This document shows, piece after piece, positions 9,244 to 43,763 of a stretch of DNA of 64,000 nucleotides. A program made the position numbers and the translations under genes. The notes beneath the pieces were generated by a model. That model saw only the letters and a list, made by a program, of their open reading frames with translations. It made no database searches and was not told the DNA's origin. The stretch is taken from NCBI RefSeq assembly GCF_021917145.1, contig NC_061073.1:3189673-3253672 (forward strand), given 5' to 3'. Each line of letters opens with the position of its first letter. Position 1 is the stretch's first letter. The stretch is from Hypomesus transpacificus (lineage: Eukaryota > Chordata > Actinopteri > Osmeriformes > Osmeridae).

Positions 9244-9264
9244 TCATGTTAAGTCATACGTTTC

Positions 9265-9866
9265 AGCATCGTTCCTGTGTGATACATTTGGAGACGCCAC
9301 GCCGTGGAAAGCGAACACTTCACAGCACAAGTAGCAGAAGATTCCGTGGGTAAGTAACAAATATTGAGGTCTGGGATGAATCTGCCAAGAAAGTTATAGC
9401 CTAAAACTAACCTCACAATCTACTTTTGTGTTAAATGGTTTTGTTACTGTAAATATGTTGACGGTATCTGAGAACTTTGGCGTCGAATGGACTGTGATAA
9501 CATTCAAAGTCAAAGTTGTCCATCTCGGTTTTTGATAGTTTTATACTATTGTGATATTTTCTTTATGAAAATTGTAAATTTCTCAGAGCCTAGTTATTAA
9601 TCAGTCAAATGTTGTGTTCCGTGGTTTCAGATACTGGAGACTTATCGTTCACCCATCGTTCAGTGTGTTCGCTTGAAGGGCAGGTGTAAAATTGTGACAC
9701 ATTTGCTGAACTTAGAGGGTGTCATAATCAGTATGTAGGATCATCTATAAATGACCAAGGTGAGTACTAAATTAGACTTTAATTGTAAACTGATAAGTAA
9801 AATCACGTTTTTCTATCAAGTGGCCTGGTGTTTGCAGTGTCTCTCCCTTCGCCTTCCTTTGCAGTC
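9265..9866 (+). other. 5' non-coding exon and intron region, copy A
   Basis: A probable first exon ends at ttccgtgg before a gtaagtaac donor at about 9351. A small second exon may end at atgaccaag before gtgagt (about 9760). Joined to the coding exon, that ATG would read only three codons and then a stop, so it would be an upstream mini-ORF. The acceptor before the coding exon is the pyrimidine-rich ccttcctttgcag ending at 9864. Confidence 0.5.
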
Positions 9867-11394
9867 ATGAATAAAGGAAAGAAAGAAGATGGGGCGTCCC
9901 TTCCAGGGGCGTCTCGCTTTCCCTCACTAACCTCATCCAGGAAACGGAAGGAGACTGAGCCAGGGAAACAGTCCAGGGATCTCACCAGAAACCCAAAGTT
10001 ATCTGGTAAGACCAGCTCTGGTTTGCAGTCGGTACCAGAAGACACCTTGGCCGATGCTCCAGCAGCAAAGACTCGCCTGCCTCCGCTGAAGACACAGGAG
10101 GCGGCAGGTGCCTCTAAGAATCAGCACGGTAAAAAAGAGGCCAAACTGAAAGTTCCTCGGCCCCCGAGCTGCAAGTCCAGTTCTATGGTTCGTTTGATTT
10201 CAAACAAAGATTCAAGCGTCCAGCCATACTCCAAACTTGAGTTCAGGCCCAAAACTGGACTGAAGCTGGATCAGACAGAGCAGAGGCAGCCGTTCCCTCC
10301 TCTGTGCTCCCCTGCTCGGCCTCCAGGGCAGCCGTCTGCTCGCGGCAAGCGTAGACGTCTCGTCGCCGCGTCTGACTCTGAGAAGGCGCCCCTGACTCCG
10401 GTCCTCCCTCACATCGAGGCACCGGCCGTCTCACGCACCGCAACGCTGGACTCCCAGATGGACGTCTCCTGCGCTGTGCCAACTACACGGATCGTCCTAC
10501 AAAGTAAGTTCTTGAATGCTAACCTCAATACATTCTCTTCTCAACCTTCTGGCACCCACTATGCCTGCTGGAGTTAGACTAGAAGCTGCCGGAAGTCACG
10601 CTAACCAGAAGTTTGATTTCCCTACAGAACAAACAAAGGTTGCCCAGGAAACTCTGCCCTCTCTTCCTACCAGTCTGGTGGGCAAACGGCGTCCTAGCTA
10701 CCTTCTGATTCGTCCACCCATTGACAACGCAGCTTCCGCAGACAGGACACAGAAGTCAGCTCACCCGTCCAAACTGTCCAACCCTGTCAGCAACCTGGTT
10801 GTGGCTCCACCCACCAGCGCCAAACCACAGAAGCGTACCTCCCAAAAGGTCCGGCGTCTGCAAGCGCGTGCTGACCAGGCCTCCGAGGCCTCCCAGGACG
10901 ACGGCGCAGCGAAGAAATCCTGTCTCTTCCCGCCGATCTCTCGCCACCCGCCTGACGGAGACGGCAAGACTCAGGCCCCGCTGAGGCCTCAGGCCCCGCT
11001 GACCAGGCCACCTCAGGCCCCGCTGACCAGGGCATCTCAGGCCCCGCTGACCAGGGCATCTCAGGCCCCGCTGACCAGGCCACCTCAGGCCCCGCTGAGG
11101 CCCCAGGCCAGTGAGGAGCAGCCGGCTCTGCTCCCCAAGAGGAGAGCCATGGACATGGTGGAGGGGACCTCCTCTCCTGAGAGGATGCTGGATCTTGTGG
11201 CCGAGCAGTACTCCTTCAGCCAGTGCCTCATGTCCTGCCCCAGCACCCCACCAGAGCACGTGTGGATGCACAGCCACAACACTCAGGAGGAGCGGGTGTT
11301 CCTGCCTGACTTTGGGCAGATGTTTGAGGAGGAAGATATTGAAATGACGTCTGGAAACAAGAGGGAGACCCTGAGAGGAGACGGGTCCCAATAG
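9867..11394 (+). CDS. Unnamed basic/proline-rich protein, copy A (spliced, intact)
   Basis: Two coding exons, 9867-10503 and 10628-11394, join across a 124-bp intron (gtaagt...ccctacag) to give 467 residues. I chose the ATG at 9867 because the acceptor ends at 9864 and the upstream frame lies in the intron. The protein begins MNKGKKEDG, is Ser/Pro/Lys-rich and has a basic GKRRR cluster that could direct it to the nucleus. About residues 328-372 are five to six QAPLTR/QAPLRP-type repeats. The acidic C-terminus contains ERMLDLVAEQYSFSQCL and VFLPDFGQMFEEED. I recognise no domain and no family. Compared with copy B the intron has a 4-bp insertion, which breaks an unspliced reading frame but not the spliced one. 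About nine substitutions and no stops separate the two proteins, so both copies look maintained. Confidence 0.75.
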
Positions 11395-11524
11395 TCTGGG
11401 GCCCATCCAGACATGCAGGACTAGGGTTCTAGAGAAGATGATGTGTCCTCTCTCTCTTTTCAACACCTAAACGAGGAGATCACCCAACACCTTCTTACCC
11501 CTCCCCCCTCCCCCCCATCCACCC

Positions 11525-11584
<60 letters not shown>

Positions 11585-11668
11585 ACTATCAATTTATCAA
11601 TCTTATTTTTCTGTCTGTCTATGCACCCCTACAACCATTATCCTTCAAACATACATTACAACATACAT

Positions 11669-11750
<82 letters not shown>

Positions 11751-12090
11751 CCCTCTATCTATTCATCCATCCAACCATTCATCCTACAAACACGCACGAC
11801 CCATCAAACCAATCCCCCCCCTCCCCCCCCCTTCCCCTGGGTGTTCTCCCGTAGAGACTCTCCAGAACATCCGAGACGTCCCATCAAGAACACATCCCTC
11901 AGCCCTGGAACTAACCTGCAGCACAGTCTCCTCCTCCACCAGCCCTCCAGACCTCACACACCTCCCTGATTGGCCTCAACATTACACAGAACTTCCACTC
12001 TGATTACCAACAGGGTGACAGCATAGCAACAGGATTTTTTCATGTATTTCCTTTAACATGCTCCGTGTAATAAATTTTGCATTTAAAAAA
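11395..12090 (+). other. Probable 3' UTR of copy A with CT microsatellites
   Basis: Two long CT runs (about 11529-11582 and 11671-11746) lie in a C/T-rich region after the stop codon. A polyadenylation signal aataaa occurs at about 12069-12074. The long CT-repeat reading frames here are simple-repeat translations and not genes. In unit B the same two CT runs are shorter. Confidence 0.6.
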
Positions 12091-12184
12091 TAACATGTAG
12101 GCAATTCATGTGTATGTGCCAGGTTTACAATCATGAATTCATGAAAACGTTTTGTTGCATTTAATTTCATGAACAAATACATTT

Positions 12185-13115
12185 CAGAATCAGAATCAGA
12201 AGGGATTTTATTCGTCATGAGTGTTTGCACAAACAAGGAACTTACTTTGGCAGGGAGGTGCATACATTTAACATATAGGAATATTGAAACTTAAATATGT
12301 GGACTAACTATACAAAAGGAGCAAAGTCTAGCTAATACTAAGGGGGGTCTAGGTAATACTAAGGGGAATAAGAAATAAAAATATAAGTAGCATAAAAATA
12401 TAAGTAGCAATTTACAATTTAACCTAAAAATACCCAAGCGGAAGGACTCCACAGTGTTGACTGGGGAGTCACACAGGGTTATGGTGTGAGTGGGGCTGTG
12501 TTCTTCCTGAAGTCCACAACCATCTCCACTGTCTTAAGAGTATTGAGCTCTAAGTTGTTCTGGCTACACCAGGTCACCAGGTTGTCAGCTTCCCACCTGT
12601 AGTCAGACTCGTACCCGTCAGAGATGAGCCCAATGAGGGTGGTGTCATCCGCAAACTTCAGGAGTTTGACAGACGGATGACTCGAGGTGCAGCTGTTGGT
12701 GTACAGGGAGAAGAGCAGAGGAGAAAGGACGCAGCCCTGAGCAGATCCGGTGCTGATGGACCGGGAGTCAGAGACTTGTGTTCCCAGCTTAATGCACTGC
12801 TTCCTGTCAGACAGGAAGTCTGTGATCCACCTGCAGGTGGAGTCGGGGACGTTCAGCTGGGAGAGCTTGTCCTGGAGCAGGGCGGGGATGATGGTGTTGA
12901 AGGCAGAGCTGAAGTCCACAAACAGGATCCTGGCGTAGGATGCTGGGGAGTCCAGATGCTGTAGGGTGAAGTGGAGGGCCATGTTAACGGCATCATCCAC
13001 CGACCTGTTGGCTCTGTAGGCAAACTGCAGTGTGTCCAGGAAGGGGTCTGTGATGGATTTGAGGTGTGCCAGCACAAGGCGCTCAAAAGACTTCTTTACC
13101 ACAGACTTCATTACA
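12185..13115 (-). pseudogene. LINE reverse transcriptase fragment, copy A
   Basis: Minus-strand frame with the FVDFSSAFNTIIP and KFADDTTLIGLI motifs (the latter carries the catalytic DD), preceded by FERLVLAHLK and followed by WCSQNNLELN, the order of a CR1/L2/Rex-type non-LTR reverse transcriptase. The frame is open through the palm domain but is cut after ESFRLG, where the remaining C-terminal part is missing. The plus-strand (cagaat)n at 12185 is the simple-repeat 3' tail of this minus-strand copy. Upstream of about 13115 the frame runs into unrelated sequence. It is a 5'-truncated, internally deleted insertion, also present in unit B. Confidence 0.8.
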
Positions 13116-13364
13116 TTACCATTTGCGTATAGCCTTAGCTTTTCTAGATAACCTCTCTCTGAAACAGGAAGAACTGCACCTGTGACTGAGGAGAGCCACA
13201 CTGACCTGGCGGAACATTTACATTCAAGCAAACACTCTACAAACACTCCACAAACACATTGTCGTTACTGTAAATAGTGTCTTCAGTGTGAGGGTGGTTG
13301 GGGGCAAGAAAGACAGATGACCCTGGAAGACAGAGAGATGTGCCGGGGAACACTACCTGGTCCA

Positions 13365-13730
13365 GGATGCTGTGTGGTGACTTCACTGTAAACACTGCCT
13401 GGTCCAGCATGCTGTCCTGTGACTTCACTGTAAACACTGCCTGGTCCAGCATGCTGTCTGGTGACTTCACTGCAAACACTGCCTGGTCCAGCATGCTGTC
13501 CTGTGACTTCACTGTAAACACTGCCTGGTCCAGCATGCTGTCCTGTGACTTCACTGTAAACACTGCCTGGTCCAGCATGCTGTCTGGTGACTTCACTGCA
13601 AACACTGCCTGGTCCAGCATGCTGTCCTGTGACTTCACTGTAAACACTGCCTGGTCCAGCATGCTGTCCTGTGACTTCACTGTAAACACTGCCTGGTCCA
13701 GCATGCTGTCTGGTGACTTCACTGTAAAGC
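13365..13730 (+). repeat. 42-bp minisatellite, copy A (about 8-9 units)
   Basis: Tandem 42-bp units beginning cactgcctggtccagcatgc and ending with the tgacttcactgtaaa segment. Variants alternate between tgtcctgtgac and tgtctggtgac. Because the unit is a multiple of three and lacks stops, both strands stay open for about 160 codons; this is a repeat artefact and not a gene. Unit B has about 15 units plus an inverted block. Confidence 0.9.
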
Positions 13731-13739
13731 CCTCGGTCA

Positions 13740-14985
13740 GCGTTTCAATGTGCCCTCTAAGAGAACAAACCGCTAAATGAAGGCCTTCATTTCTTTCACT
13801 GTGAGCCTATTTCTAACAGACACTAGTTATTTGAAGTAATCTGCAATTTTTGCATTGATCTGCAATTTTTGCACTATTGTACTGTACTCCACCTAGGTTA
13901 GAATAGGATATTGAGTTGTAATGGTGTTTATGTGCATTTAGGGTTAGTATAGTGCAGCTTCTAGGGATTCCCAAAGTGTGGTGCGCCTCTAGGGGGTGCG
14001 CGAGAGGAAAAATGTAATGGTGGTCTATTGGTGTAATATGAATTATTATATGGCAACGACAGTACAAGCTTTCTGATCGGCTAATGGGTCCTGCTAGCCG
14101 CGTATTGCCCTCCTCGCCCGTCTGACACGGATCCGGACCAATTATTTGTTTGTAAACATTCTGGATACGCGCGCAGCATGGTGGCAGAAAACGGGGTAAC
14201 TGTAGCCTTTATAAGGGCTAGTTACACGGATTATTCCAATAGTTAGATTTTAAAAGACCAAAAAGGTCGAGGAGGACAACCTTTTTGGGAGAAAGCTATT
14301 CCACATTGATCTGTCACATCAGAATTTTGATTTGGGGCACGGAATTCTTGAAATTTGAGTGAGAATGTCGCCCGGTAGACCGCATAGTCTTAGGCGGCAG
14401 CCATGTCTTCACGTCAAGACAAAGTTCATTTTTTTTTCAGTTTTACAGTCAGTCCTACATCAAAAAAAGTCGAGCAGGGCAGCTTTCAAGAGATCTGGGA
14501 ATTCTGCTTTTTGCCAGCTGGTCCAATTATTTTTGTGATTTGTGTAAAACTGGCAATCTGAGTGAGACTGCGTCCCCGTTACTGTACAGTAGTGTTTTGA
14601 CGTTAGCCTCAGTCAGACTCGGCTCGCTCACTGGCAGTCTGCACAATGTTGTTTGTCACTCCATTCTACACTTAGAACGTCAGGGAGGACTGCCTTTGGT
14701 AGATACAAGCCATCTGAAGATAGCCAGAATTTCGGATTTCTTCAACCAAACCTGTTTCATTCATCATTTGCCTGAGAAAGAGATCTCCGTTACTAGCTAG
14801 CCAGGCTAGTTTAGCCCGTTTCACTCCTCAGGCTATTTAAGGGTACATGTTAGCCAATGAACGCCAGCAAGATTGGCACGTGACTTGAGCATATTAATTG
14901 ATGTGTTCCTGTCAAATAAATATTTCTCTAGTTTCTCTCCCATGAGAGCCAGTTCAGAAACATGGTTCTTTCACCTGCACTGTTA
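13740..14985. other. Non-coding stretch of unit A, possible hAT remnant
   Basis: I see no convincing gene. The segment gattcccaaagtgtggtgcg (about 13967) resembles the end of a hAT element. In unit B a segment with repeated gggggtgcg at about 32890-32932 may be its other end, which would make most of this a non-autonomous hAT into which a LINE tail later inserted. An 86-codon frame at 14540-14800 is unsupported. Confidence 0.3.
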
Positions 14986-15368
14986 ACACTGGGTCAAATA
15001 CTTACTCTCCTGTCTGCAAGGCAAAGGACGTCAACAAACTGAGAAAACTCATAAGGAAAGCAGAGTCTGTGGTTGGCTCTAAGCTTGTCACCCTGGAGGA
15101 GGTGGTGGAGGACAGGATACTGACAAAACTGCTGGCAATCATGGACCATCCCTCTCACCCCCTCCACAAAACCCTGGACAAGCTAAGAAGCAGCTTCAGC
15201 CACAGACTCATTCAACCCCGCTGCTCTAAGGAACGATTCAGGAAATCGTTCCTCCCAACCGCAATAAGACTGTTCAACTCATCTACCTCTTTCAGAGCCA
15301 CCATCACAGAACTGCACTAAACCTGTCTACTTGCACTTTATTCTATTGTATTGTATTTTATTGTATTC
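14986..15368 (+). pseudogene. LINE ORF2 C-terminal fragment, copy A
   Basis: Plus-strand frame reading DVNKLRKLIRKAESVVGSKL, later MDHPSHPLHKTLDKLRSSFS, then a Cys/Arg-rich RLIQPRCSKERFRKSFLP. This is the domain that follows reverse transcriptase in CR1/L2/Rex-type LINEs. It is an independent 5'-truncated insertion on the strand opposite the 12.2-13.1 kb fragment. Its 3' tail (in unit B, an aataaa and tctatc repeats) is missing here because the transposon junction cuts in at about 15363-15368. Confidence 0.75.
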
Positions 15369-16175
15369 GTAAATGCAAGTACCATGATCCACAAATATTT
15401 CACGATTTACAAATGTGTTTTGCGATCCACAAAAACAAAATTCTAACTCGTGATTTGTAAGTTGGCATTTACATAAATGTGCTATGATTTGTACACATAG
15501 ATGTCCATTCGTAAATATATCGTTTGTAATTTCTTAAAATACTTAACATTTCGTGCGTGCATTTCTCATGGTCTGTCATTTGTAAATCTACAATTCGCGT
15601 GTGAAGTGTTGAATCTGCATTTGTGGATCGCCCAATACACGCGTGCAAATCCTTCTTCCTATGACGTAATTTTGAGACAATCTTTTCGGTCTTTTGCGAT
15701 CCACACACAAATGGCTTTCTGATTCACAAATGCAAGCCTCCCCCCCCCCCCCCCCCCCCCCCCCCTTCGACAGTGCCATCCTATCCGGTAGGTGGCAGTG
15801 TTGTCCTCTGCCTTGATGGTTGTACGCCAGCGCGTTCAAGGATTTTGCCGCCTTCAGGGCGCTTTCAGATTCTTAAAGCTATGGCTGGACAAGGATCGAC
15901 TCCTGATGGTGTGCCTTCGACAGTAAGTAAAAATCGCTTGAAAATGCCTTACTCGCTTAACAGCGAGATAGTAAGCCAGCTAGTTAGCTAATGAAATGTG
16001 TAACTTTGCTAAGAGAAGTGATTGTAATTGCTGGATTTGTGATAGTGATTGTAATTACATTACCTTACTACTTTGGTTTTTGTTAATTAGCTAGCTACTG
16101 TTAGCTGTACCAACATAAACAATGGAGCTAGTTAACTAACTAGCTTTCGACAGTGAAATGATAGGCGGCAGTGTT
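15363..16175 (+). repeat. Left TIR of copy 1
   Basis: Pairs with 24309-25154 in inverse orientation. The outer 350 bp contain many copies of gatccacaaa/tttgtggatc and atttacaaat-type motifs in both orientations, likely transposase-binding sites. A poly-C run (26 C at 15740-15765) follows, then the putative promoter, the ATG exon (15881-15922) and part of its intron. The TIR stops matching at about gcagtgtt (16175). The outermost 30 bp present in copy 2 are missing here. Confidence 0.85.
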
Positions 16176-19100
16176 CGATATAAGATAATGATTCCATATC
16201 TCTTTGTAACAACATTTTGAATGGGAATTTGTACCATATTTTAAATAACAGAACATGGTGGAGAACATGGCTCAGGCATTGTTGACTGCTCTGACTAGGG
16301 CAGCCAATACCTCTCATAGCCTTCCTCCAGCTCTACACCCCGGCATCCTCCCCAACTGCCCAACTACAACTAACGGTATCTGTCAGACCCCCACCACGCC
16401 CACCATGACTTCAAGTGTTAACCAGTCATTAAAGAGGTAAGACTGAAGATGGCAAACTTTAAGACAATATGGCCATCCAGTGGGAAACAACTACATTTCT
16501 GTTATAAATAAAAATGAGAGTTCCATTATTCTTGTAAATGCTATCTTGTTTGTCTCCTTTTGTAGGCAGTTTCCAAATATGTTTTTATCAAAAACAAACA
16601 AAAGAGGGAAAGGACGGTTTTCCAGCTCTCCCCGGTCTGTTCCTGTTAAAAACCTTGACCTCCAAATAAATGTAATGTCAGGACCCACCAATCGGACCCC
16701 CACAGGTTCTAAGGAGCTCGAGCTAGCCCAGACAGGGCTAGGAAAACGAATGGTGTCAGTGCCAGAGGACAGCAGCCATAAAGAGGTCTTAATTTGATTT
16801 TATATGTTGCTATGAAATAATAATGACATTTACGTAGGCCTCATTTGATATATTATTGATTTCACTGCCCCTTTGTCCATTGCAGAGGATGCCACTTAGA
16901 ACTCAACATCTTTATTGTGATTTTGATGTCTTTTTAGATAGTGTCACTGATAGAAGAGGAGTTTTTGAAACTCCGCCCCCTTGAAGGAAGGTGGATGTTT
17001 TTCAAGGCAACAGGTATTGTTCACAGAAACAAGATCTTTTTTGCACTGATGGTTAGCCCTTATGCTTACTGCTGGTGTGGCTGTTAGAGAGCAGTGTGAC
17101 ATTTTTTTCCACTATTGTTGTCATACTGACATCATTTTATGTTATGATTTAGGAGGCAGTGGCCAAAGGAAGCTCTCTATCGTCCCCATGGACACAGAAG
17201 GCTACTCTGTCCGGCAGCTTCGCACTGCATCAAACAATGGGAAAAATGTCCTCTTTTTGGTTCCTCTGCAAGAGGAGTTGGACACAGAGCCACTTCCTTA
17301 CAATGCAGCAGAATTTGCAAGGATGCCACAGGTGCCTTGCCTGACTTGCAATACAACCATGCCCCTGCAAATGTTGGCACTTCATGCCGAGAATTGCCAA
17401 CCAACAACAGAGGTGAGTTGTGTGATCTGTGATTGGATGTCATGTTGATAAGATGTTTCAATGTCAATTGCAATCACAATGTCAATTGGGCACAATCCAA
17501 CAGTGTTAATTGATCTTTACACTGTATTACGTATTATGTGCACTATTTAAACAATTACATTGTGTAACATGGCTCAACAACATTGCTAACAGGAGCAGAG
17601 TGGTGTGGCGGTCATAGAGGAGGAGAATGAGGAGGAGAATGATGCCATTGGCACTTCAGAGGAGCAAGGGGTAACTGTTGCCAAATTTACCTACTTGAAA
17701 CAAACTATGGAAAATGGCGATTAATGTACTTTGTTATAAATCTTTATCAATTTTTTTTATAATTGTTGTCATCAGTGTTTTCTGTTGTAAGTGATGTTGA
17801 ATATATGGTTTCCTATTTGTCAATATTGTCATCTGTACAGGTGTGCCCTATATGCCAAGAAGTATTTCCTACTTCAGTGCTCCCTCTTCATGCCAGTGTT
17901 TGTGCAGAAAGGTAAAACAACTTGTTAATTTTAATGCAGTATCACATGTGAAAGCATTTATTTTCCAGCTATAGCATAGGAAGTGTACAAACAGAAATGG
18001 CACATAAAACAATTGTGCTTGGTGAATAAAATGTGTTTTAAAGGTTTAAGGTTGTGAAAGGATTTTATGGTAAGCAATGTATGGTAACAAAAGAGGATCC
18101 AAGCTATTCTACACAATTACTGTGGTATTGACATGTGCCATAATGTTTTGTGTTATGTCCCTTTTGTTGTAAGATCCTTCTGCAACAACACAATTGTGGA
18201 GCCTGATATGGAGGTTCCAGGCCCTTCATCTGCAGATTCCTCTGTGGCTCGATCAGCCCTTCGTTTAACAACTTCTTTAGCAACAGGTAACAAAGCAAGA
18301 CTATTGTGATATAGGGAGACACTAAAGCTTTCTTGGACCTGATCAACTGCTCATACAATCATCATGTCAGCTAAATCCTTACATGAATCCAACATTTGTA
18401 TATCCTGTTTGGAAATGAAACTGTTCATGATCAGTGTAGTATAATTACACGCATTCCATCCTTGTCTCACAAAAAGCATGGAAAACAGCAGATACCCCCC
18501 TAGAAGCCATGCGGCTGTTTCTACAAGAACTGAGGCAAGGAGGAGAACACCAGCCATCTCTACTGCTGTCACTGGATGCCAGGGATGATGATGAGGAGCG
18601 GGACAGTGCCCTTGTTTCTTTTTACAAAGAAATGCGTCAAAAGAGCCAATGGACAGCACCTTTCAAGTGCCGCATTCTAGGTATTGTTTGATAGATGTAA
18701 CACATTAATTAAACATTCTATATGTTAAAGTGCAATCAGCATTAATACGTTTTTTTTTATGCACTGCCCATGGAAATCATGCCTATGTTGTATCAAATTT
18801 CTGTAATGACCCCATGATAGTTGTACAGTAAATCCAGCAACTTCAAATCACATATGAATTGGGACATTTCCCAAACTGTATGTGATGAGTTAGTACCATG
18901 GTCTTTAACTATATCTATTTCAGAATGACACATCTGTGTTTACATTTACTTTTATTTTAACCAGTATGTGGATGATTTTGAAGAGCAGAGTGACAAAATA
19001 TGAACATTTTGTTAGAGAAGGAAGTAAAATACTTGTCTCACATAAGTGTTTTTATTGCAGGGGATGCTGCAGTTGGTGTGGGGGTTGCTAGACATACCCT

Positions 19101-20945
19101 GTCATCAACCATTTCCAAATTAAAACATGGGTTTAAACTGAACTTGGGTTTGTACTTTTCACTAACATTTGGCATTTAGTGCTATTCAAACATAAACTAA
19201 TAGGCTGGAGCGAGATAGGGATACCAGTGTAAACACATTTCCTGACACTAAATTTCTCAAATGTGTTTCTTCAAACTGTCCTTATAGTACCTGTCATGTT
19301 CTTCAATTAACTTTGATTTGCTTGTGTATTTATCTGTAATGGTTCAGGAAATGCTGCAGTGACTACAATGTTTGAAGGACAAACAGACCACCTTGTGCCT
19401 GCCTTGTCCGCAGCCCTCATTGACAGTGACCTGTTCCTTATGGCTGGTAGGATGATTGGCCACTCCGCAATTCATGGCGGTCCTACTCTGTCAGGGCTTA
19501 GTCTGGCAGTGGTGGATTCCTTGAGATATGGCTCAAAGGAAACGGCCACATCATCGCTCTGCCTAGAGGACTGCTCAGATATAGACCACAGGGAAACCAT
19601 CGGTCTGGTGAGTAAAGAATAACTTCTGTCACAAGATCAGCGTCATTCATGTTTCATGTCCACAAACTGATGTGTATATTAATTTTACTCTGTTGAAGTT
19701 GCTGAAGGAAGAATTGGGTGAAGAAGAGTCTTCACGAGTAACCAACCTTTGTCTGGAGTGGTATTTCCCGGTGCCAACCAAGGAGACAAACAGACTACTA
19801 CTCTTCCAGCAGCTGCTTTCTCATGCTGTAATTTGTATTTCTCTGAAAAACCTTTTTTAAATATCTTAACCCATAAGCCATATTATAGTAATTCCTTGCG
19901 CTTTGCATCATTTATTAATCAAAATGAATGTAAAATTATCCAACTTGAATTTAAAAGTTAATATTTCACAGGTACTTGGCAGATCAAATGCTCAAATAAA
20001 GCAAATCAGAAAGGGGTTGAAGGACACTGGAATTTGGCCACTACTTGCCTGTCGACCAGATGTTGCTCCCCTATTGTTCCCCAGAGAGTCTGTTGTGAAA
20101 CTCACCTCCCAAGTAAGTTGACAAGTAACTACACTGCTCAAAAAAATTAAGGGAACACGTAATCATCACAGTACAACACCAAGTCAATTAAACTTCAGAG
20201 ACATCAATCTGTCCAGTTAGGAAGCATAAGCGATTGAATCAATGAAGCCTGACATTCTCCGGTGGGACCTGTGCTCACAGCCCAGCATCGTGCAGCTTGA
20301 TTGGCATTCGCCAGACAACACCAGGATTGGCTGGCAGGTCCGCCATTGGCACCCTTTCTCTTCTATTTAGTCCATTGAGACCCGATGACTTCAGTGTTCC
20401 CTTAATTGTTATGAGCAATGTATATGATTACTTCTTTATAAATGTTACATGGAATAATGTTTTTCCCCACTTGTCAGATGGTCCTAGAGTCCATCACATG
20501 GCCCCCATCGAAACAAACAGATGACAGTGACAACAGTGACAGTGAAATCTCAGATGGCAAAGTCAGCCTCATCTCTGGATTTCTTCGAACCTTCGTTGAA
20601 GAGGGTACAAGTTCTAAAACATATATCTAAATATACAAATATCTAGCAGACAATCATCAAATCATGTTCATAAATATAAATACCATATGTAATAATCTTT
20701 GTTGTATTGCTTTAGCATCCCCAGACATTTTGCGGCAGCTTCTGAAGTTCTGGGTCGGTTGGGAGGTGCCATCCAATACCCTCAAGTTAGAAATTGTGAA
20801 CTCATGTGGTCGTAACCACCTACCAACCTCGAGCACCTGCTATGAGCGTTTACGTATCTCTAATCACTACACCAGGTACTCCGCTCTAAAAGCGGATCTA
20901 ATTATATGTCTACAGTCTGTTGAGAGTGGGTTCGGCCTGGTGTAA
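15881..20945 (+). CDS. Transposon-encoded HECT ubiquitin ligase-like protein with C2HC zinc fingers, copy 1
   Basis: Fifteen exons, all with GT-AG borders and matching phases, give 740 residues: 15881-15922, 16252-16436, 16566-16785, 16938-17013, 17153-17412, 17593-17670, 17841-17911, 18174-18286, 18477-18680, 19061-19147, 19348-19607, 19699-19827, 19972-20112, 20478-20604, 20716-20945. Two C-x2-C-x11-H-x3-C fingers (C237/C240/H252/C256 and C289/C292/H304/C308) resemble Rad18-type UBZ4 ubiquitin-binding fingers. From about residue 350 to the end is a HECT-type domain with RMIGHSAIHGG and the C-lobe LPTSSTCYERL. The Cys (706) lies 35 residues from the C-terminus and GFGLV supplies the conserved Phe at -4. 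Expected activity is ubiquitin transfer through a Cys thioester. Fish proteins of this kind are often annotated as G2E3-like. The first exon lies in the TIR. Confidence 0.85.
20132..20420. mobile_element. 289-bp Tc1/mariner-type MITE in HECT-gene intron 13, copy 1
   Basis: Termini cactgctcaaaaaaattaag and the inverse cttaattgttatgagcaatg, flanked by TA (20130-20131 and 20421-20422). The terminal sequence is that of a Tc1-like family widespread in fish. No coding capacity remains. It sits in the intron between exons 13 and 14 and leaves the splice sites intact. The same insertion is in copy 2, so it predates the split of the two transposon copies. Confidence 0.8.
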
Positions 20946-21327
20946 TAAGGTGAACAACTTAAAAAAACATTTTATTTTGCTTGTGACACTTTGAAAAGAA
21001 TGCAGAATGAAGAATGGCCTTCTCTGCTGCGCTTGCGTAACACAACATAGCTAGCACATACTGAGTAAGTGATGGTCAGTTGTTCTATTTTGGAGTATTT
21101 ATTTTTTGACTAATCACCCTACGTTATACTTTTCAACACACCTCAATACAGAAAGAAATCAAGGTACTGTGGATTACATTTCTGACCAAAAAAAAAAATC
21201 ATTTGTGAGGGTTTCTGAACTTGGGTTACGTGTTCTGTTTTTGTGTTGAAAACTTGAAAGAAAAATAAATATCTGATCAACCAATTTTTTTTTTGAGGAT
21301 TTCTATTTTTCACATGAAAGTAGCATC

Positions 21328-24300
21328 TTAACGTTCCTGCAGCAATCCTTCAACATACTGCACGGTTGTCATATATATGTCAATACCATTGGATTCTGAA
21401 GGCTGCAGAGGATGAATGTGGTGCTGTAATGCAGCCAGTTGCTCAGGAGTGAGTGGGCTCCCCAGCTGAGGAACATTCACTCCAATATGTGGGTCTGGGA
21501 CCTCCCCACTTTCCTCCCAATCAATCTGAGGGATGTTCATCTCCTTAAAAGTTGGAAGAAAAAACATGTAGAAAGGGACATTTTTTTTCCTATAGTAAAC
21601 CATTGTGTATTGCAGTATCTATTTGCATATAAAGAGAAAGGAATATAAGCAAAAATAATTCATGTTCAATGATACCTCTGGATTTGGAATGGGATGTTGC
21701 ATCTGACCAACCTCCCACAACTGGTTTGGTGTGAGGTTCTGCTCCGTTCTTAGAGGGTGATTGTCCCATCCTTCTCTAAACACATCTAGGTTTACTTCAA
21801 GACGTGGCAGAAAAACATAGTGAAGGCAAAAGAAATGCGTGGCATTGCTTAGATCGAGGAGGCCCTCTTCCTCCAGCATGTGGAAAATGTGGTAAAACAC
21901 ATTGGTGACCCCCATCCAAATGTCACGCCAAAGTCTCTCGATTCTGTTGAAAACAAAATATATATCTGCTAGCCACATTAAGTAGTTCTGTCTTCTTACT
22001 AAAATATTTAAGACAAGGTATACCTTTGGTTATGGACACTTTTTCCAGCTATAAAGCTGCCACTGTCTGGTCCACGCACGGTAAACATCAAACGGGCAAC
22101 ACCAACATTCTCTCCCCCTTGATCTGCTCGCACTCTAAAGACATTGACCAAAACACAAATAATGGACCTTTGGAACAAGACAGGCTTTTTTTGGGTAACA
22201 AATCATTAACACAGCACCTGACCTGAGTTACAAATTTACCTGAGTGGATATCCAAAATCCTGAACAGCCTGGCTGAAGAAGGCTAAGGTGGTGTCGGACC
22301 GATTATTGTTTGCAGCCCTCAGGTACATAATCTGTAGACATACACAATTATTGTACGTACCATCATTGCGAATACAAAAAAATGTAGTTCAACCCAAATA
22401 ATGGTGGAGTGTCACAACTCTCTTGCATACCCTTACATGGTGAAACTGATGAATAGAACATGTATAGTACAAGTATAACTGAAATCTTCAATGACATCAA
22501 TTTTGACAAGATCTCTCAAATGTAAACAGACAAAATTGCAGAGGAAATGTTTTACTCAATCTTGGTTGATTTTAATATCTTGTGGTAATAAAACTTTTAT
22601 CTGAGCTGAAGCAGTGTATGTTGTTAGTCCAATGATTATCTTAACATTGAGCTGCTCATTATGTGAAATTGAAGGTTACTCTCACCTTACGTGAAAAGCC
22701 ATCAATTCCACCAAAAATAACTATGTTGTACCTGATGGACAGTGAAAAGAACAATCCTTAGAAAAAGGTGACTACATCTCGGGTGCTATTTTCAGTTTTG
22801 TATGTTCGTTATCAAACATCTGTCGAACATGCATAAATTAGTCCACCTTATTAAGCACAAGAACACAGGTTACCTGATGAGTTTGTGATTGGTGTCTATA
22901 TGCACAAGGTACTTGGGGCATGGCACGGAGTATGTTCGCCTGATAACACATCCCAGTTGGGTCATTCTTGACAGTATCCCAACGCTGTCTACACGATGCA
23001 TTGATGCTTTCACACGAAGCCACTGGAGTCGATGTCCTTGTGCCTTCAGAGTACCCTTCACTAATCTGTACCCTGCATGCGGCATCCTCTCTTTTATTTC
23101 AGAGACACGTTCATCTACTTCTGCATCGGTCATGGCACTGTACATTCCTCTGACAGAGAGGTTGTTGTCAGCCATTCTTCTGTACAGTGTAGCACGAGAA
23201 ATCCCGACTAAACTTGCAATTGTCACCACTGGCAGTCCAAGTTCCAGTAGATGCCTTAGATATTCAACACATATTGTTATCTTTGGTCGTCCACATCCAC
23301 TTTGCATGTCAAGTTGGACTGGTGTGGGAGGACGTTGCTGATGTTCTCTCTGATTTTGAAGTGCATTGCATAACTCCATTAACTTCTCTGTAACTTCCTG
23401 GGACACCGGAATATGGTGTGACATAACGTTGAGGAAAACCATTTCCTGTCTACATACAAATTCCAGATAGTCTGTATCAAGTGGTGTTTGCTGGAGTGCA
23501 TGTGTCACTCTGCTGAGCAGTCTATCCAGAACGTGTTGTCTTAAAATTTCCTAAAAAGCGAATATAACAGGAAATGTCTGGTGAGAAGTCAGGCTTTTAA
23601 ACCAAGGTCAATCTTTTCAACCAAAATTAACATTCACTAAAGGGCAGCAGCATGCAAAGTGCAACAATAATTTAAATTCTATAGAAGAGAGTCCACGGCA
23701 GAAAAGTACTCAGTACATCCATCAGGATACATGAGCTACAGTTAAACTGGTACTTATGACATTGTGACACTGGCTCTATAATACAAATTAAAAACGTTGT
23801 TGTCACAGCATTGTACTTTTAATATATATAGATACACACATATATTATAACATTCTGGTTTTGAAATCCAATCAGGATATGCCTAGAAATGTTACTTTCC
23901 TGATTTTAGCAGTTAGCCAGGGGGTCCCATTATCGTCTACCCAACCACTTTCAATGGAGAAATGTCAGTTTGACGCTGCTGAAGGCAATGCTACACGTAC
24001 GGTTTGAGAGCGTATTTACATACTCAAATATCAAAGTAAGCTGTAATTTGGTGTGCAGCAATACAAGATGTGTACAGGTCGATGTTACTTTCTTTCATTG
24101 CTGCTGCATATCTTCTTTAAGAAATGCTACAGTAAACGAAAATCCGTTGGCTGCAAAGTACACGGACCTGTTAGTCACAGGGACTAGTCTGCACATCGCT
24201 TTTACTGATATTGCATAGCACATACCCATCCCGTTTGTTGACTTCTGTCAGCTTCCATGACAGCAGCGTAGCAGCCCAGGTGTAACTTGCTCACTGGCTG

Positions 24301-24608
24301 ATCGAACAACACTGCCGCCTATCATTTCACTGTCGAAAGCTAGTTAGTTAACTAGCGTTAGCTCCATTGTTTATGTTGGTACAGCTAACAGTAGCTAGCT
24401 AATTAACAAGAACCAAAGTAGTAAGGTAATGTAATTACAATCACTATCACAAATCCAGCAATTACAATCACTTCTCTTAGCAAAGTTACACATTTCATTA
24501 GCTAACTAGCTGGCTTACTATCTCGCTGTTAAGCGAGTAAGGCATTTTCAAGCGATTTTTACTTACTGTCGAAGGCACACCATCAGGAGTCGATCCTTGT
24601 CCAGCCAT
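21328..24608 (-). CDS. DDE integrase-type transposase, copy 1
   Basis: Seven exons on minus give 483 residues: 24608-24567, 23550-22874, 22731-22686, 22331-22240, 22134-22024, 21943-21676, 21543-21328, all GT-AG and in phase. A helix-turn-helix lies at about residues 118-140 ([18 protein letters not shown]). The rve-like catalytic core follows: D233 in [10 protein letters not shown]290 in [11 protein letters not shown] and E325 in [10 protein letters not shown], a D-x56-D-x34-E arrangement. This is the fold of retroviral integrases and IS3-type transposases, which cut and join DNA ends with two metal ions. The first 14 residues come from the TIR exon. An alternative first exon, 24258-24226 ([11 protein letters not shown]), is also in phase. 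No stops or frameshifts are seen, so the gene may be functional. Confidence 0.85.
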
Positions 24609-24723
24609 AGCTTTAAGAATCTGAAAGCGCCCTGAAGGCGGCAAAATCCTTGAACGCGCTGGCGTACAACCATCAAGGCAGAGGACAACACTGCCACCTA
24701 CCGGATAGGATGGCACTGTCGAA

Positions 24724-24754
<31 letters not shown>

Positions 24755-25154
24755 GGCTTGCATTTGTGAATCAGAAAGCCATTTGTGTGTGGATCGCAAA
24801 AGACCGAAAAGATTGTCTCAAAATTACGTCATAGGAAGAAGGATTTGCACGCGTGTATTGGGCGATCCACAAATGCAGATTCAACACTTCACACGCGAAT
24901 TGTAGATTTACAAATGACAGACCATGAGAAATGCACGCACGAAATGTTAAGTATTTTAAGAAATTACAAACGATATATTTACGAATGGACATCTATGTGT
25001 ACAAATCATAGCACATTTATGTAAATGCCAACTTACAAATCACGAGTTAGAATTTTGTTTTTGTGGATCGCAAAACACATTTGTAAATCGTGAAACATTT
25101 GTGGATCATGGTACTTGCATTTACGAATACTTTTGAGACATATCTCTCTCCATA
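24309..25154 (-). repeat. Right TIR of copy 1
   Basis: Inverse of the left TIR, here with the complete outer end: moving inward from 25154 come TATGGAGAGAGATATG, gtctcaaaag, then the gatccacaaa-type motif cluster. The poly-G run here is 30 bp (24724-24753), against 26 in the left TIR. It contains the mirror-image ATG exon (24608-24567). No target duplication can be called because the left flank is deleted. Confidence 0.85.
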
Positions 25155-25776: not shown

Positions 25777-26089
25777 CAGGCTACTTCATAACGTATATAC
25801 TAAAATTCGTTTTTGTAAATATGGCAATTGTCAGTACCATGTGTTGGCCTGCTTGTCGTGTATTTTTTGTAAACTAGCTCTTAGACTTAACTATAGTTAG
25901 CTGCTTGGAAGTGTCACTCAGTTATTATAGCTGTGATTGTGAACACCAGCTGATAACTGGACGCGAGGTGATACAAAACTTGCATAGAAACGGACATTAA
26001 TTTTGGAGCTTTTTCCTCTTGGCAGCAGGAGATGGAACAAAAATCGATCTAACCTGGATTGTGACATAATTGTTTCAAGAGTTCCATTG

Positions 26090-26190
26090 ATGTGACCATT
26101 GGATAAAACCAATAAACTAGACGTGACGTAACACAGCCATTAGTAGCCTACGACAATACGTGATGTCATAATGTAGCCGAGCATATAAAT
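26090..26190 (+). promoter_or_regulatory. CCAAT/CRE/TATA promoter of unnamed gene, copy B
   Basis: ATTGG and CCAAT boxes near 26098-26113, TGACGTAA near 26123, CRE-like TGATGTCA (26161-26168) and TATAAAT (26184-26190). The first exon and its donor (ttccgtgg before gtaagtaac, about 26296) match copy A. The TATA box is closer to consensus than in copy A. Confidence 0.65.
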
Positions 26191-26813
26191 TCATGTTAAA
26201 TCATACGTTTCAGCATCGTTCCTGTGTGATACATTTGGAGACGCCACGCCGTGGAAAGCGGACACTTCACAGCACAAGTAGCAGAAGATTCCGTGGGTAA
26301 GTAACAAATATTGAGGTCTGGGATGAATCTGCCAAGAAAGTTATAGCCTAAAACTAACCTCACAATCTACTTTTGTGTTAAATGGTTTTGTTACTGTAAA
26401 TATGTTGACGGTATCTGAGAACTTTGGCGTCGAATGGACTGTGATAACATTCAAAGTCAAAGTTGTTCATCTCGGTTTTTGATAGTTTTATACTATTGTG
26501 ATATTTTCTTTAGGAAAATTGTAAATTTCTCAGAGACTAGTTATTAATCAGTCAAATGTTGTGTTCCGTGATTTCAGATACCGGAGAGTTATCGTTCACC
26601 CATCGTTCAGCGTGTTCGCTTGAAGGGCAGGTGTAAAATTGTGACACATTTGCTGAACTTAGAGGGTGTCATAATCAGTATGTAGGATCATCTATAAATG
26701 ACCAAGGTGAGTACTAAATTAGACTTTAATTGTAAACTGATAAGTAAAATCACGTTTTTCTATCAAGTGGCCTGGTGTTTGCAGTGTCTCTCCCTTCGCC
26801 TTCCTTTGCAGTC

Positions 26814-28337
26814 ATGAATAAAGGAAAGAAAGAAGATGGGGCGTCCCTTCCAGGGGCGTCTCGCTTTCCCTCACTAACCTCATCCAGGAAACGGAAGGAG
26901 ACTGAGCCAGGGAAACAGTCCAGGGATCTCACCAGAAACCCAAAGTTATCTGGTAAGACCAGCTCTGGTTTGCAGTCGGTACCAGAAGACACCTTGGCCG
27001 ATGCTCCAGCAGCAAAGACTCGCCTGCCTCCGCTGAGGACACAGGAGGCGGCAGGCGCCTCTAAGAGTCAGCCCGGTAAAAAAGAGGCCAAACTGAAAGT
27101 TCCTCGGCCCCCGAGTTGCAAGTCCAGTTCAATGGTTCGTTTGATTTCAAACAAAGATTCAAGCGTCCAGCCAGACTCCAAACTTGAGTTCAGGCCCAAA
27201 ACTGGACTGAAGCTGGATCAGACAGAGCAGAGGCAGCCGTTCCCTCCTCTGTGCCCCCCTGCTCGGCCTCCAGGGCAGCCGTCTGCTCGCGGCAAGCGTA
27301 GACGTCTCGTCGCCGCGTCTGACTCTGAGAAGGCGCCCCTGACTCCGGTCCTCCCTCACATCGAGGCACCGGCCGTCTCACGCACCGCAACGCTGGACTC
27401 CCAGATGGACGTCTCCTGCGCTGTGCCAACTACACGGATCGTCCTACAAAGTAAGTTCTTGAATGCTAACCTCAATACATTCTCTAACCTTCTGGCACCC
27501 ACTATGCCTGCTGGAGTTAGACTAGAAGCTGCCGGAAGTCACGCTAACCAGAAGTTTGATTTCCCTACAGAACAAACAAAGGTTGCCCAGGAAACTCTGC
27601 CCTCTTTTCCTACCAGTCTGGTGGGCAAACGGCGTCCTAGCTACCTTCTGATTCGTCCACCCATTGACAACGCAGCTTCCGCAGACAGGACACAGAAGTC
27701 AGCTCACCCGTCCAAACTGTCCAACCCTGTCAGCAACCTGGTTGTGGCTCCACCCACCAGCGCCAAACCACAGAAGCGTACCTCCCAAAAGGTCCGGCGT
27801 CTGCAAGTGCGTGCCGACCAGGCCTCCGAGGCCTCCCAGGACGACGGCGCAGCGAAGAAATCCTGTCTCTTCCCGCCGATCTCTCGCCACCCGCCTGACG
27901 GAGACAGCAAGACTCAGGCCCCACTGAGGCCTCAGGCCCCGCTGACCAGGCCACCTCAGGCCCCGCTGACCAGGGCATCTCAGGCCCCGCTGACCAGGGC
28001 ATCTCAGGCCCCGCTGACCAGGCCACCTCAGGCCCCGCTGAGGCCTCAGGCCAGTGAGGAGCAGCCGGCTCTGCTCCCCAAGAGGAGAGCCATGGACATG
28101 GTGGAGAAGACCTCCTCTCCTGAGAGGATGCTGGATCTGGTGGCCGAGCAGTACTCCTTCAGCCAGTGCCTCATGTCCTGCCCCAGCACCCCACCAGAGC
28201 ACGTGTGGATGCACAGCCACAACACCCAGGAGGAGCGGGTGTTCCTGCCTGACTTTGGGCAGATGTTTGAGGAGGAAGATATTGAAATGACGTCTGGAAA
28301 CAAGAGGGAGACCCTGAGAGGAGACGGGTCCCAATAG
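26814..28337 (+). CDS. Unnamed basic/proline-rich protein, copy B (spliced, intact)
   Basis: Exons 26814-27450 and 27571-28337 flank a 120-bp intron and encode 467 residues. The intron length is a multiple of three without stops, so the unspliced frame is also open; the perfect gtaagt donor and ttccctacag acceptor, plus the 4-bp indel in copy A, show it is an intron. Features are the same as copy A: basic N-terminal half, GKRRR cluster, QAPLTR repeats (about 328-372) and an acidic tail with FGQMFEEED. Differences from A include Y/D, S/P, L/F, A/V, G/S and G/K changes, mostly in the low-complexity parts. Function unknown; probably nuclear (inference from the basic cluster). Confidence 0.75.
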   Translation: MNKGKKEDGASLPGASRFPSLTSSRKRKETEPGKQSRDLTRNPKLSGKTSSGLQSVPEDTLADAPAAKTRLPPLRTQEAAGASKSQPGKKEAKLKVPRPPSCKSSSMVRLISNKDSSVQPDSKLEFRPKTGLKLDQTEQRQPFPPLCPPARPPGQPSARGKRRRLVAASDSEKAPLTPVLPHIEAPAVSRTATLDSQMDVSCAVPTTRIVLQSKFLNANLNTFSNLLAPTMPAGVRLEAAGSHANQKFDFPTEQTKVAQETLPSFPTSLVGKRRPSYLLIRPPIDNAASADRTQKSAHPSKLSNPVSNLVVAPPTSAKPQKRTSQKVRRLQVRADQASEASQDDGAAKKSCLFPPISRHPPDGDSKTQAPLRPQAPLTRPPQAPLTRASQAPLTRASQAPLTRPPQAPLRPQASEEQPALLPKRRAMDMVEKTSSPERMLDLVAEQYSFSQCLMSCPSTPPEHVWMHSHNTQEERVFLPDFGQMFEEEDIEMTSGNKRETLRGDGSQ

Positions 28338-28478
28338 TCTGGGGCCCATCCAGACATGCAGGACTAGGGTTCTAGAGAAGATGATGTGTCCTCTCTCTCT
28401 TTTCAACACCTAAACGAGGAGATCACCCAATACCTTCTTACCCCTCCCCCCTCCCCCCCATCCACCCTCATCTCTCTC

Positions 28479-28517
<39 letters not shown>

Positions 28518-28601
28518 ACTATCAATTTATCAATCTTATTTTTCTGTCTGTCTATGCACCCCTACAACCATTGTCCTTCAAACATACATTACAACATACA
28601 T

Positions 28602-28665
<64 letters not shown>

Positions 28666-29000
28666 CCCTCTATCTATTCATCCATCCAACCATTCATCCT
28701 ACAAACACGCACGACCCATCAAACCAATCCCCCCCCTCCCCCCCCTTTCCCTGGGTGTTCTCCCGTAGAGACTCTCCAGAACATCCGAGACGTCCCATCA
28801 AGAACACATCCCTCAGCCCTGGAACTAACCTGCAGCACAGTCTCCTCCACCACCAGCCCTCCAGACCTCACACACCTCCCTGATTGGCCTCAACATTACA
28901 CAGAACCTCCACTCTGATTACCAACAGGGTGACAGCATAGCAACAGGATTTTTTCATGTATTTCCTTTAACATGCTCCGTGTAATAAATTTTGCATTTAA
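28338..29000 (+). other. Probable 3' UTR of copy B with CT microsatellites
   Basis: CT runs at about 28470-28516 and 28607-28662, shorter than in unit A. A polyadenylation signal aataaa lies at about 28983. Confidence 0.55.
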
Positions 29001-29098
29001 AAAATAACATGTAGGCAATTCATGTGTATGTGCCAGGTTTACAATCATGAATTCATGAAAACGTTTTGTTGCATTTAATTTCATGAACAAATACATTT

Positions 29099-30030
29099 CA
29101 GAATCAGAATCAGAAGGGATTTTATTCGTCATGAGTGTTTGCACAAACAAGGAACTTACTTTGGCAGGGAGGTGCATACATTTAACATATAGGAATATTG
29201 AAACTTAAATATGTGGACTAACTTTACAAAAGGAGCAAAGTCTAGCTAATACTAAGGGGGGTCTAGGTAATACTAAGGGGAATAAGAAATAAAAATATAA
29301 GTAGCATAAAAATATAAGTAGCAATTTACAATTTAACCTAAAAATACCCAAGCGGAAGGACTCCACAGTGTTGACTGGGGAGTCACACAGGGTTATGGTG
29401 TGAGTGGGGCTGTGTTCTTCCTGAAGTCCACAACCATCTCCACTGTCTTAAGAGTATTGAGCTCTAAGTTGTTCTGGCTACACCAGGTCACCAGGTTGTC
29501 AGCTTCCCACCTGTAGTCAGACTCGTACCCGTCAGAGATGAGCCCAATGAGGGTGGTGTCATCCGCAAACTTCAGGAGTTTGACAGACGGATGACTCAAG
29601 GTGCAGCTGTTGGTGTACAGGGAGAAGAGCAGAGGAGAAAGGACGCAGCCCTGAGCAGATCCGGTGCTGATGGACCGGGAGTCAGAGACTTGTGTTCCCA
29701 GCTTAATGCACTGCTTCCTGTCAGACAGGAAGTCTGTGATCCACCTGCAGGTGGAGTCGGGGACGTTCAGCTGGGAGAGCTTGTCCTGGAGCAGGGCGGG
29801 GATGATGGTGTTGAAGGCAGAGCTGAAGTCCACAAACAGGATCCTGGCGTAGGATGCTGGGGAGTCCAGATGCTGTAGGGTGAAGTGGAGGGCCATGTTA
29901 ACGGCATCATCCACCGACCTGTTGGCTCTGTAGGCAAACTGCAGTGTGTCCAGGAAGGGGTCTGTGATGGATTTGAGGTGTGCCAGCACAAGGCGCTCAA
30001 AAGACTTCTTTACCACAGACTTCATTACAT
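29099..30030 (-). pseudogene. LINE reverse transcriptase fragment, copy B
   Basis: Same insertion as 12185-13115, with FVDFSSAFNTIIP and KFADDTTLIGLI motifs, the same C-terminal truncation and the same (cagaat)n tail. The palm frame is still open. Only a few substitutions separate it from unit A. Confidence 0.8.
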
Positions 30031-30269
30031 TACCATTTGCGTATAGCCTTAGCTTTTCTAGATAACCTCTCTCTGAAACAGGAAGAACTGCACCTGTGAC
30101 TGAGGAGAGCCACACTGACCTGGCGGAACATTTACATTCAAGCAAACACTCTACAAACACTCCACAAACACATTGTCGTTACTGTAAATAGTGTCTTCAG
30201 TGTGAGGGTGGTTGGGGGCAAGAAAGACAGATGACCCTGGAAGACAGAGAGATGTGCCGGGGAACACTA

Positions 30270-30895
30270 CCTGGTCCAGGATGCTGTCTAGTGACTTCAC
30301 TGTAAACACTGCCTGGTCCAGCATGCTGTCTGGTGACTTCACTGTAAACACTGCCTGGTCCAGGATGCTGTCCTGTGACTTCACTGTAAACACTGCCTGG
30401 TCCAGGATGCTGTCTGGTGACTTCACTGTAAACACTGCCTGGTCCAGCATGCTGTCCTGTGACTTCACTGTAAACACTGCCTGGTCCAGCATGCTGTCCT
30501 GTGACTTCACTGTAAACACTGCCTGGTCCAGGATGCTGTCTGGTGACTTCACTGTAAACACTGCCTGGTCCAGCATGCTGTCCTGTGACTTCACTGTAAA
30601 CACTGCCTGGTCCAGCATGCTGTCCTGTGACTTCACTGTAAACACTGCCTGGTCCAGCATGCTGTCCTGTGACTTCACTGTAAACACTGCCTGGTCCAGC
30701 ATGCTGTCCTGTGACTTCACTGTAAACACTGCCTGGTCCAGCATGCTGTCTGGTGACTTCACTGCAAACACTGCCTGGTCCAGCATGCTGTCCTGTGACT
30801 TCACTGTAAACACTGCCTGGTCCAGCATGCTGTCCTGTGACTTCACTGTAAACACTGCCTGGTCCAGCATGCTGTCTGGTGACTTCACTGTAAAG
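30270..30895 (+). repeat. 42-bp minisatellite, copy B (about 15 units)
   Basis: Same unit as in unit A with extra variants (tccaggatgc as well as tccagcatgc). The array is about six units longer than in A. Confidence 0.9.
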
Positions 30896-30947
30896 CCCTC
30901 GGTCAGCGTTTCAATGTGCCCTCTAAGAGAACAAACCGCTAAATGAA

Positions 30948-31076: not shown

Positions 31077-31084
31077 CTTCATTT

Positions 31085-43737: not shown

Positions 43738-43763
43738 GATCTTTATGGAAGGCCTAGTGGGCT

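Follow-up and report, generated by a model that had tools for sequence, protein, structure and literature searches.

We analyzed a window of 64,000 nucleotides of the genome of the smelt Hypomesus transpacificus (contig NC_061073.1, positions 3,189,673 to 3,253,672 of the forward strand) and found in it copies of a DNA transposon whose long terminal inverted repeats (TIRs) enclose two convergent split genes, one for an integrase-like transposase and the other for a protein of the HECT ubiquitin ligase type. Elsewhere in the smelt genome, the same pair of genes lies between TIRs that are bordered by perfect target duplications, and the pair is mobile as one unit. We consider it likely that the element is a recent transposon of autonomous type and of the IS3EU kind, that its transposase and HECT ligase both start from TIR modules, and that the ligase is probably active and directed at the host, the last of these being the part that we hold most tentatively. 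The element is made up as follows (positions are those of the window).

15363 to 25154, no strand assigned: element copy 1, the left terminus of which is without its outermost 24 bp
15363 to 16175, plus strand: left TIR of copy 1, 98.5% identical to the right TIR (823 columns), with a poly-C tract, three TTCGACAG motifs and the first exon
24308 to 25154, minus strand: right TIR of copy 1, bearing the true terminus ..CCATA at 25154
15881 to 15922, plus strand: exon 1 of the HECT gene (14 residues), within the left TIR, with donor GTAAGT in phase 0
24567 to 24608, minus strand: exon 1 of the transposase gene, within the right TIR, its peptide identical to that of HECT exon 1
15881 to 20945, plus strand: HECT ligase gene, 15 exons, 740 amino acids
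21328 to 24608, minus strand: transposase gene, 7 exons, 483 amino acids
32933 to 42721, no strand assigned: element copy 2, inverted, with both termini (TATGG..CCATA) present
42718 to 43322: additional partial copy of the terminal region, adjoining the right end of copy 2 (605 columns, 98.3% identical to 42121-42721)
43307 to 43338, no strand assigned: two terminal 16-mers (CATATCTCTCTCCATA) in tandem

Both split genes could be rebuilt with GT-AG introns, and the models obtained for copy 1 agree with an initial annotation of this DNA, which had described a single TIR element holding two convergent split genes. That annotation had also called both genes intact in both copies. All reading frames are indeed open in copies 1 and 2, and it is in this sense only that the copies are intact, given substitutions at conserved transposase positions. 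The two copies differ by 14 substitutions, which leave a single change in the HECT protein (C50S) and four in the transposase (V46L, G101E, R370C, and P386S, copy 2 being the variant). G101 and R370 map, with an offset of six residues, to positions that are at least 90% conserved in an alignment of 44 transposases (A2), and the copy 2 transposase may therefore be impaired. Two annotated H. transpacificus proteins correspond to these genes. P0001 equals residues 232 to 740 of the window HECT protein with zero substitutions, plus one extra annotated stretch, while the transposase P0083 differs from copy 1 at exactly three sites; as these are all of the copy 2 differences within its span, P0083 matches copy 2.

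Movement of the pair is best seen at dispersed loci. DNA of the HECT gene occurs five times within approximately 160 kb of the contig that carries the window (C14), once on C6, and once on C23 (eight matches at seven loci, the C6 locus being split in two). The C6 element (at approximately C6:4543866-4555107) has both genes between TATGG..CCATA ends and is bordered by a perfect 6-bp duplication, ATACAT; a GAGAGA run in its left end is two bases shorter. We also searched the smelt genome with P0026, a HECT protein that is 46% identical to the window HECT over the searched region. This yielded 94 exon-wise matches, and close copies lie on C22, C23, C18, C4, C15 (two places), and C26; among them are two elements of a second family, C22:4753527-4763355 and C23:15948832-15958662. 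In each, HECT and transposase genes are again convergent and the target duplication is perfect (AAAATC and CTAACT, respectively). The two elements are 99.1% identical; their TIRs are 720 bp long in one and 719 bp in the other, with 2 mismatches in either case, and their transposase is 52% identical to that of the window over the longest aligned stretch. Window copy 2 has TATGG..CCATA ends, as do the elements on C6, C22, and C23, and a perfect 6-bp duplication was found at all three of the dispersed two-gene elements examined. Capture of a host gene confined to the window locus, which the initial annotation had named as a reading that would overturn its proposal, was rejected on the strength of the HECT genes on C6 and C23 and of the divergent second family. 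The HECT gene lies between TIRs at C14, at C6 (interrupted), in part at C23, and in family 2 on C22 and C23, and its co-occurrence there with the integrase gene extends to C6, C22, and C23. By eye, the family 2 element on C22 sits in sequence resembling a Tc1-type transposon.

Terminal sequence of the window family matches 43 places in the smelt genome. Judged by coordinates and strand, nine pairs of inverted termini stand close together outside full elements, on C9, C21, C29, C6, C13, and C17, with ends 80 to 95% identical; six are about 1.3 kb long and the others 0.6, 1.9, and 4.9 kb. Neither gene, nor exon 1, was found in the four of these pairs that we examined, of which one has a perfect target duplication and two have duplications matching at 5 of 6 positions; at the fourth an end is altered and the duplication unreadable. 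Such TIR-only pairs are probably nonautonomous relatives of the window family. Relatives with the same TIRs and integrase that never carry the HECT gene had been named as evidence that would count against the pairing; TIR-only relatives do exist, but the four examined are short and nonautonomous, and no transposase was found in them either.

A second line of evidence comes from the first exon, which in the predicted models of both genes lies within the TIR in both families. Each TIR of family 1 (that of the window) codes a 14-residue exon 1 with a phase-0 donor, and exon 1 of the left TIR is predicted to be spliced to HECT exon 2 and that of the right TIR to transposase exon 2. In family 2, MASGGSRPPN is coded by each TIR and is followed by a GTAAGT donor. 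On the transposase side, exon 2 comes after an AG and is in phase 0; on the opposite side, farther downstream, there is an open frame similar to HECT exon 2. Other fishes, too, have a HECT protein and a transposase that begin alike within a single species: the common N terminus covers 23 residues in both Carassius auratus and Paramisgurnus, 15 in Oryzias latipes, and 10 in Trichomycterus, beyond which the two proteins diverge. Among 14,835 HECT-transposase pairs of known species, at least 12 of the first 16 residues matched in 3 of the 198 same-species pairs versus none of the 14,637 others. Lowering the threshold to 9 of 16 gave counts of 5 of 198 and 6 of 14,637 (P = 5e-5 by label permutation). 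One of the six cross-species pairs is between two Triplophysa species and four are among Danio, Carassius, and Paramisgurnus; the sixth involves an Oryzias melastigma protein that is apparently a chimeric prediction.

Five predicted proteins from five genera of Cypriniformes (P0021, P0023, P0027, P0054, and P0065; alignment A3) combine a RING/B-box (TRIM-like) N terminus with a transposon-type HECT region. The joins fall at about one common place, as though the TRIM-like part had replaced the TIR exon, and two of the five (P0054 and P0065) are without the HECT C-lobe. We regard these proteins as products of a candidate host fusion gene.

The search for homologues in fishes found HECT relatives across the teleosts. 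The matches listed comprise 82 from a protein search and 78 from a profile search, or 133 distinct proteins; all those with an organism name are from teleosts except for one sturgeon record labeled UNVERIFIED_CONTAM, and four are nameless. Both searches scored only the approximately 8,000 candidates with most words in common, and absence outside teleosts therefore cannot be claimed. Transposase queries found no relative in viral contigs or in prokaryote genome contigs, where the HECT protein was not searched. Consecutive gene numbers for transposase and HECT proteins occur in Merluccius (N1851_027114/027115), Misgurnus (LOC129441490/489), and Melanotaenia (LOC121653126/125), whereas mere presence of both matches on one contig was set aside as weak evidence. 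We compared HECT with transposase distances over nine pairs picked by adjacency or common prefix, leaving aside P0242/P0142, which comes from two Triplophysa species, and found them to be correlated (r = 0.86; Mantel P = 1.5e-4); HECT identities over these pairs are 21 to 77%. The two loaches Misgurnus and Paramisgurnus fall in different lineages for both genes, and the Misgurnus pair groups with smelt and hake. As judged from these predicted proteins, the pair is conserved across teleosts and its members codiverge. Since the pairing is seen in a second smelt family and in database proteins of other bony fishes, the ligase seems to be a regular component of the transposon, not a host gene that strayed into it.

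The transposase has an HTH_7 domain (residues 109 to 142) and an integrase core (PF24764, residues 221 to 406, E = 2.3e-74) with the predicted catalytic residues D233, D290, and E325 that the initial annotation had assigned. In P0084, the corresponding D227 is invariant among the 44 transposases and D284 and E319 are at least 90% conserved; the structure model of this protein matches IstA, TnsB, and retroviral integrases. No zinc-binding (HHCC) integrase domain was found in a Pfam scan at E values of up to 1, a range in which the scan is incomplete, as HMMER filters drop most matches above 0.1; helix-turn-helix domains lie upstream of the core instead. IS3EU/GingerRoot elements have TA..TA termini, usually 6-bp duplications, and an integrase-like DDE transposase in which no HHCC domain has been detected (PMC10045372), and the smelt element shares all of these features. 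By anatomy, it fits IS3EU with a HECT ligase as second gene. The terms HECT and ubiquitin are absent from the main text of that report. As candidate transposase-binding sites, it is possible to point to subterminal repeats in the outer TIR arm (15363-15740), where GATCCACA/TGTGGATC occurs four times in 378 bp versus not at all between the outer arms, and ATTTGT/ACAAAT occurs 8 times versus 11 times in the 8.1 kb between the TIRs. An Rfam scan of the window gave zero matches at gathering thresholds.

We think it probable that the HECT protein is an active E3 ligase, given its conserved fingers, the two-lobed fold of a homologue model, the catalytic Cys, and the Phe at position -4. Cys706 and this Phe were reproduced as initially annotated, as was the HECT C-lobe (E = 1.9e-10), beyond which Pfam recognizes nothing of the HECT domain here. 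It was the structure of a homologue that showed the N-lobe: the model of P0004 has a full two-lobed HECT fold at residues 324 to 711, which by eye correspond to residues 350 to 740, approximately, of the window protein. The matches listed in this structure comparison are HECT ligases (12 to 19% identity to the solved chains) and bear on the HECT part, not on the N-terminal part, for which the strand and helix order of the model suggests a ubiquitin-like fold at homologue residues 95 to 203. A phmmer comparison with PDB that started from the HECT protein produced a single match, of no relevance, so that a homologue profile was needed. The Cys/Phe(-4) pattern, which was defined after inspection of the protein tails, is kept in 81 of the 133 homologues, truncated predictions included, and also by some members without a precomputed Pfam HECT match. 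Two fingers with C-x2-C-x11-H-x3-C spacing lie at residues 237 to 256 and 289 to 308, and 76 of the 133 homologues have two fingers of this C2HC spacing. The fingers had been described as Rad18-like and assigned to the UBZ4 type; the spacing is present twice, but that type is not established, the profile matches to RAP80 (E = 0.0063), RAD18 (E = 0.12), and XAF1 (E = 0.17) all being weak. Among the 58 HECT members scanned with Pfam, XAF1_C was found in 4 and zf-C2HC_2 in 1, and none had a PHD family at E values of up to 0.01.

Host HECT ligases such as HUWE1, UBR5, and G2E3 share the two-lobed fold, the catalytic Cys, and the Phe at -4 with the element protein but differ in their N-terminal half, and the element protein is encoded by a mobile element. 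G2E3 itself combines PHD-type fingers with a HECT domain. Some of the fish homologues are labeled G2/M phase-specific E3 ligase-like, but these names are database labels only, and orthology of the element HECT with G2E3 was rejected, no PHD family having been seen in the 58 members.

How might such a pair operate? We suggest that the long TIRs each serve as a portable 5′ module, supplying a start codon, a short phase-0 first exon, and presumably a promoter. From two such near-identical modules, given the predicted splicing, transposase and HECT protein would be expressed convergently with a common N-terminal peptide. The ligase would be kept for the benefit of the element itself, ubiquitylating either host silencing and restriction proteins or proteins that repair transposition sites. 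Action on the host is a tentative proposal, with roughly as much to be said for it as against it. The initial annotation had suggested repair or chromatin proteins of the host, or the level of the transposase, as what the ligase may act on, and all of these are candidate targets at most. More conjectural is its fullest form, in which an old teleost transposon lineage uses an active HECT core gene, coexpressed through TIR modules, to degrade host silencing or restriction factors, i.e., as a ubiquitin-based counterdefense. The main rival, which we consider rather unlikely, is that the ligase tags the element's own transposase with ubiquitin, thereby keeping harm to the host in check. The match between the TIR modules suggests that both genes are expressed alike, and codivergence of the two proteins would fit direct recognition; however, linkage alone could also yield codivergence, and as a matter of general reasoning, a selfish element is usually under stronger selection to evade its host than to restrain itself. 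It is improbable that the protein is a noncatalytic cofactor that uses its fingers and HECT fold to attach to ubiquitylated chromatin or to the transpososome, steering integration with no need of ligase activity. The frequent finger pair and its weak similarity to the RAP80 and RAD18 profiles would suit such a role, but the catalytic Cys and Phe(-4), needless for binding alone, are kept in most of the homologues.

Several observations weigh against the reading that we prefer, that of a recent transposon with a probably active, host-directed ligase. The C6 HECT gene is broken, with about 1.6 kb inserted into it and exon 10 deleted, and the window-family copy on C23 has a partial, truncated HECT gene with stops. 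The proportions of nonsynonymous changes at C6 (10 of 14 in the HECT gene, with 0.73 expected, and 6 of 8 in the transposase gene, with 0.75 expected) are at neutral expectation. The Cys/Phe pattern is missing from 52 of the 133 homologues, many of them apparently truncated gene predictions. The Mantel test ignores host phylogeny. Finally, no target duplication was found at the window copies or at those C14 copies with both flanks readable. No purifying selection was seen among the smelt copies, where neutral-looking changes are expected as copies decay after insertion, and selective constraint is therefore visible only between families. The same changes are what might be expected of a host HECT gene captured once and carried as functionless cargo. 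This is very improbable, since functionless cargo would have decayed; instead, the identical gene, orientation, and TIR-coded first exon recur in a family whose HECT shows just 46% identity, the paired proteins of medaka, goldfish, loach, and catfish start with common residues, and gene numbers are consecutive in three further species. That the pair arose by accident, through segmental duplication beside an unrelated host gene, or is an assembly artifact is hardly credible: the window copies do stand in a near-identical five-copy array, and copy 1 is truncated at its left end, but the C6, C22, and C23 pairs within termini bordered by perfect target duplications refute this as a general explanation.

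Maize MuDR, the transposase of which is of the Mutator type, has two convergent genes (mudrA and mudrB) with promoters in identical long TIRs, and the function of the second is unclear. To our knowledge, MuDR has no HECT domain and no coding exon inside its TIR. The layout of the smelt element resembles that of MuDR, the smelt TIR additionally supplying a predicted start codon and splice donor. Mutator-like elements (MULEs) carry Ulp1/SENP-type protease genes. Transposon-borne antisilencing genes are mentioned for the Vandal families of MuDR (PMC12730594). Vandal and MULE elements thus also encode regulators of silencing or of ubiquitin-like modification, but the enzymes differ, that of the smelt being a HECT conjugating enzyme. 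Rust IS3EU families have TAYGG..CCRTA termini and 6-bp duplications, and in fungal TET-bearing IS3EU elements a TET/JBP gene, proposed to help the elements escape silencing, lies between oppositely oriented transposase and alpha-kinase genes (PMC12730594). As far as these passages describe them, the fungal elements resemble the smelt element in the opposite orientation of transposase and enzyme genes, in their similar termini, and in their 6-bp duplications, but they carry a kinase and a DNA dioxygenase as accessory enzymes where the smelt has a ubiquitin ligase. HECT and ubiquitin are absent from the text of that report, and a TIR-coded shared exon is unmentioned in its passages on these elements. 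We found no paper on a transposon HECT/transposase pairing in the open PMC literature, a search that does not extend to Repbase, Dfam, or subscription papers; a HECT-bearing IS3EU element may already have been deposited in Repbase. For unclassified repeat candidates of Cottus, G2E3 is among the blastx matches given in the part of the report concerned (PMC5638112), and these candidates may fit an element of the smelt type. A term search of a paper on tongue sole g2e3 gave no mention of transposons (PMC11394658), and the available text of a paper on Hypomesus nipponensis makes none of IS3EU or HECT (PMC12083275).

As for the window itself, its two copies are two of the five that form the C14 segmental array and not two independent transpositions, because each of the other three has at least one flank in common with the window copies. 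At the left junction of copy 1, a GTATTC microhomology stands where the outer 24 bp of the TIR are gone. The window also holds a tandem segmental duplication of about 6.4 to 6.7 kb (9006-15368 and 25952-32660) in which 42-bp and 24-bp tandem repeats occur and the main blocks have identities of 97.9% and 99.8%, and a nearly palindromic fold-back element (43763-49684) with arms of about 2 kb, 98 to 100% complementary in their main blocks and bearing 20-bp tandem repeats, around a center of about 1.7 kb. On the minus strand lie a reverse transcriptase fragment (29393-30178; PF00078, E = 4.6e-21), probably of a LINE-like element, and an open DDE_Tnp_4 transposase frame (53429-54295; PF13359, E = 6.5e-33), which we take to be Harbinger-like.

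DNA transposons are usually described by their transposase, and here the second gene, found in teleost lineages, is for an enzyme of the ubiquitin pathway. Which proteins a transposon must ubiquitylate for its survival becomes a question that can be tested in fish cells. Our results suggest that some fish genes named "G2/M phase-specific E3 ubiquitin-protein ligase-like" or "uncharacterized" are transposon genes, which would affect studies of gene families and their expansion. Moreover, a TIR-coded first exon means that a start codon and a splice donor, probably together with a promoter, travel with the element, which may offer a route to new host fusion genes.

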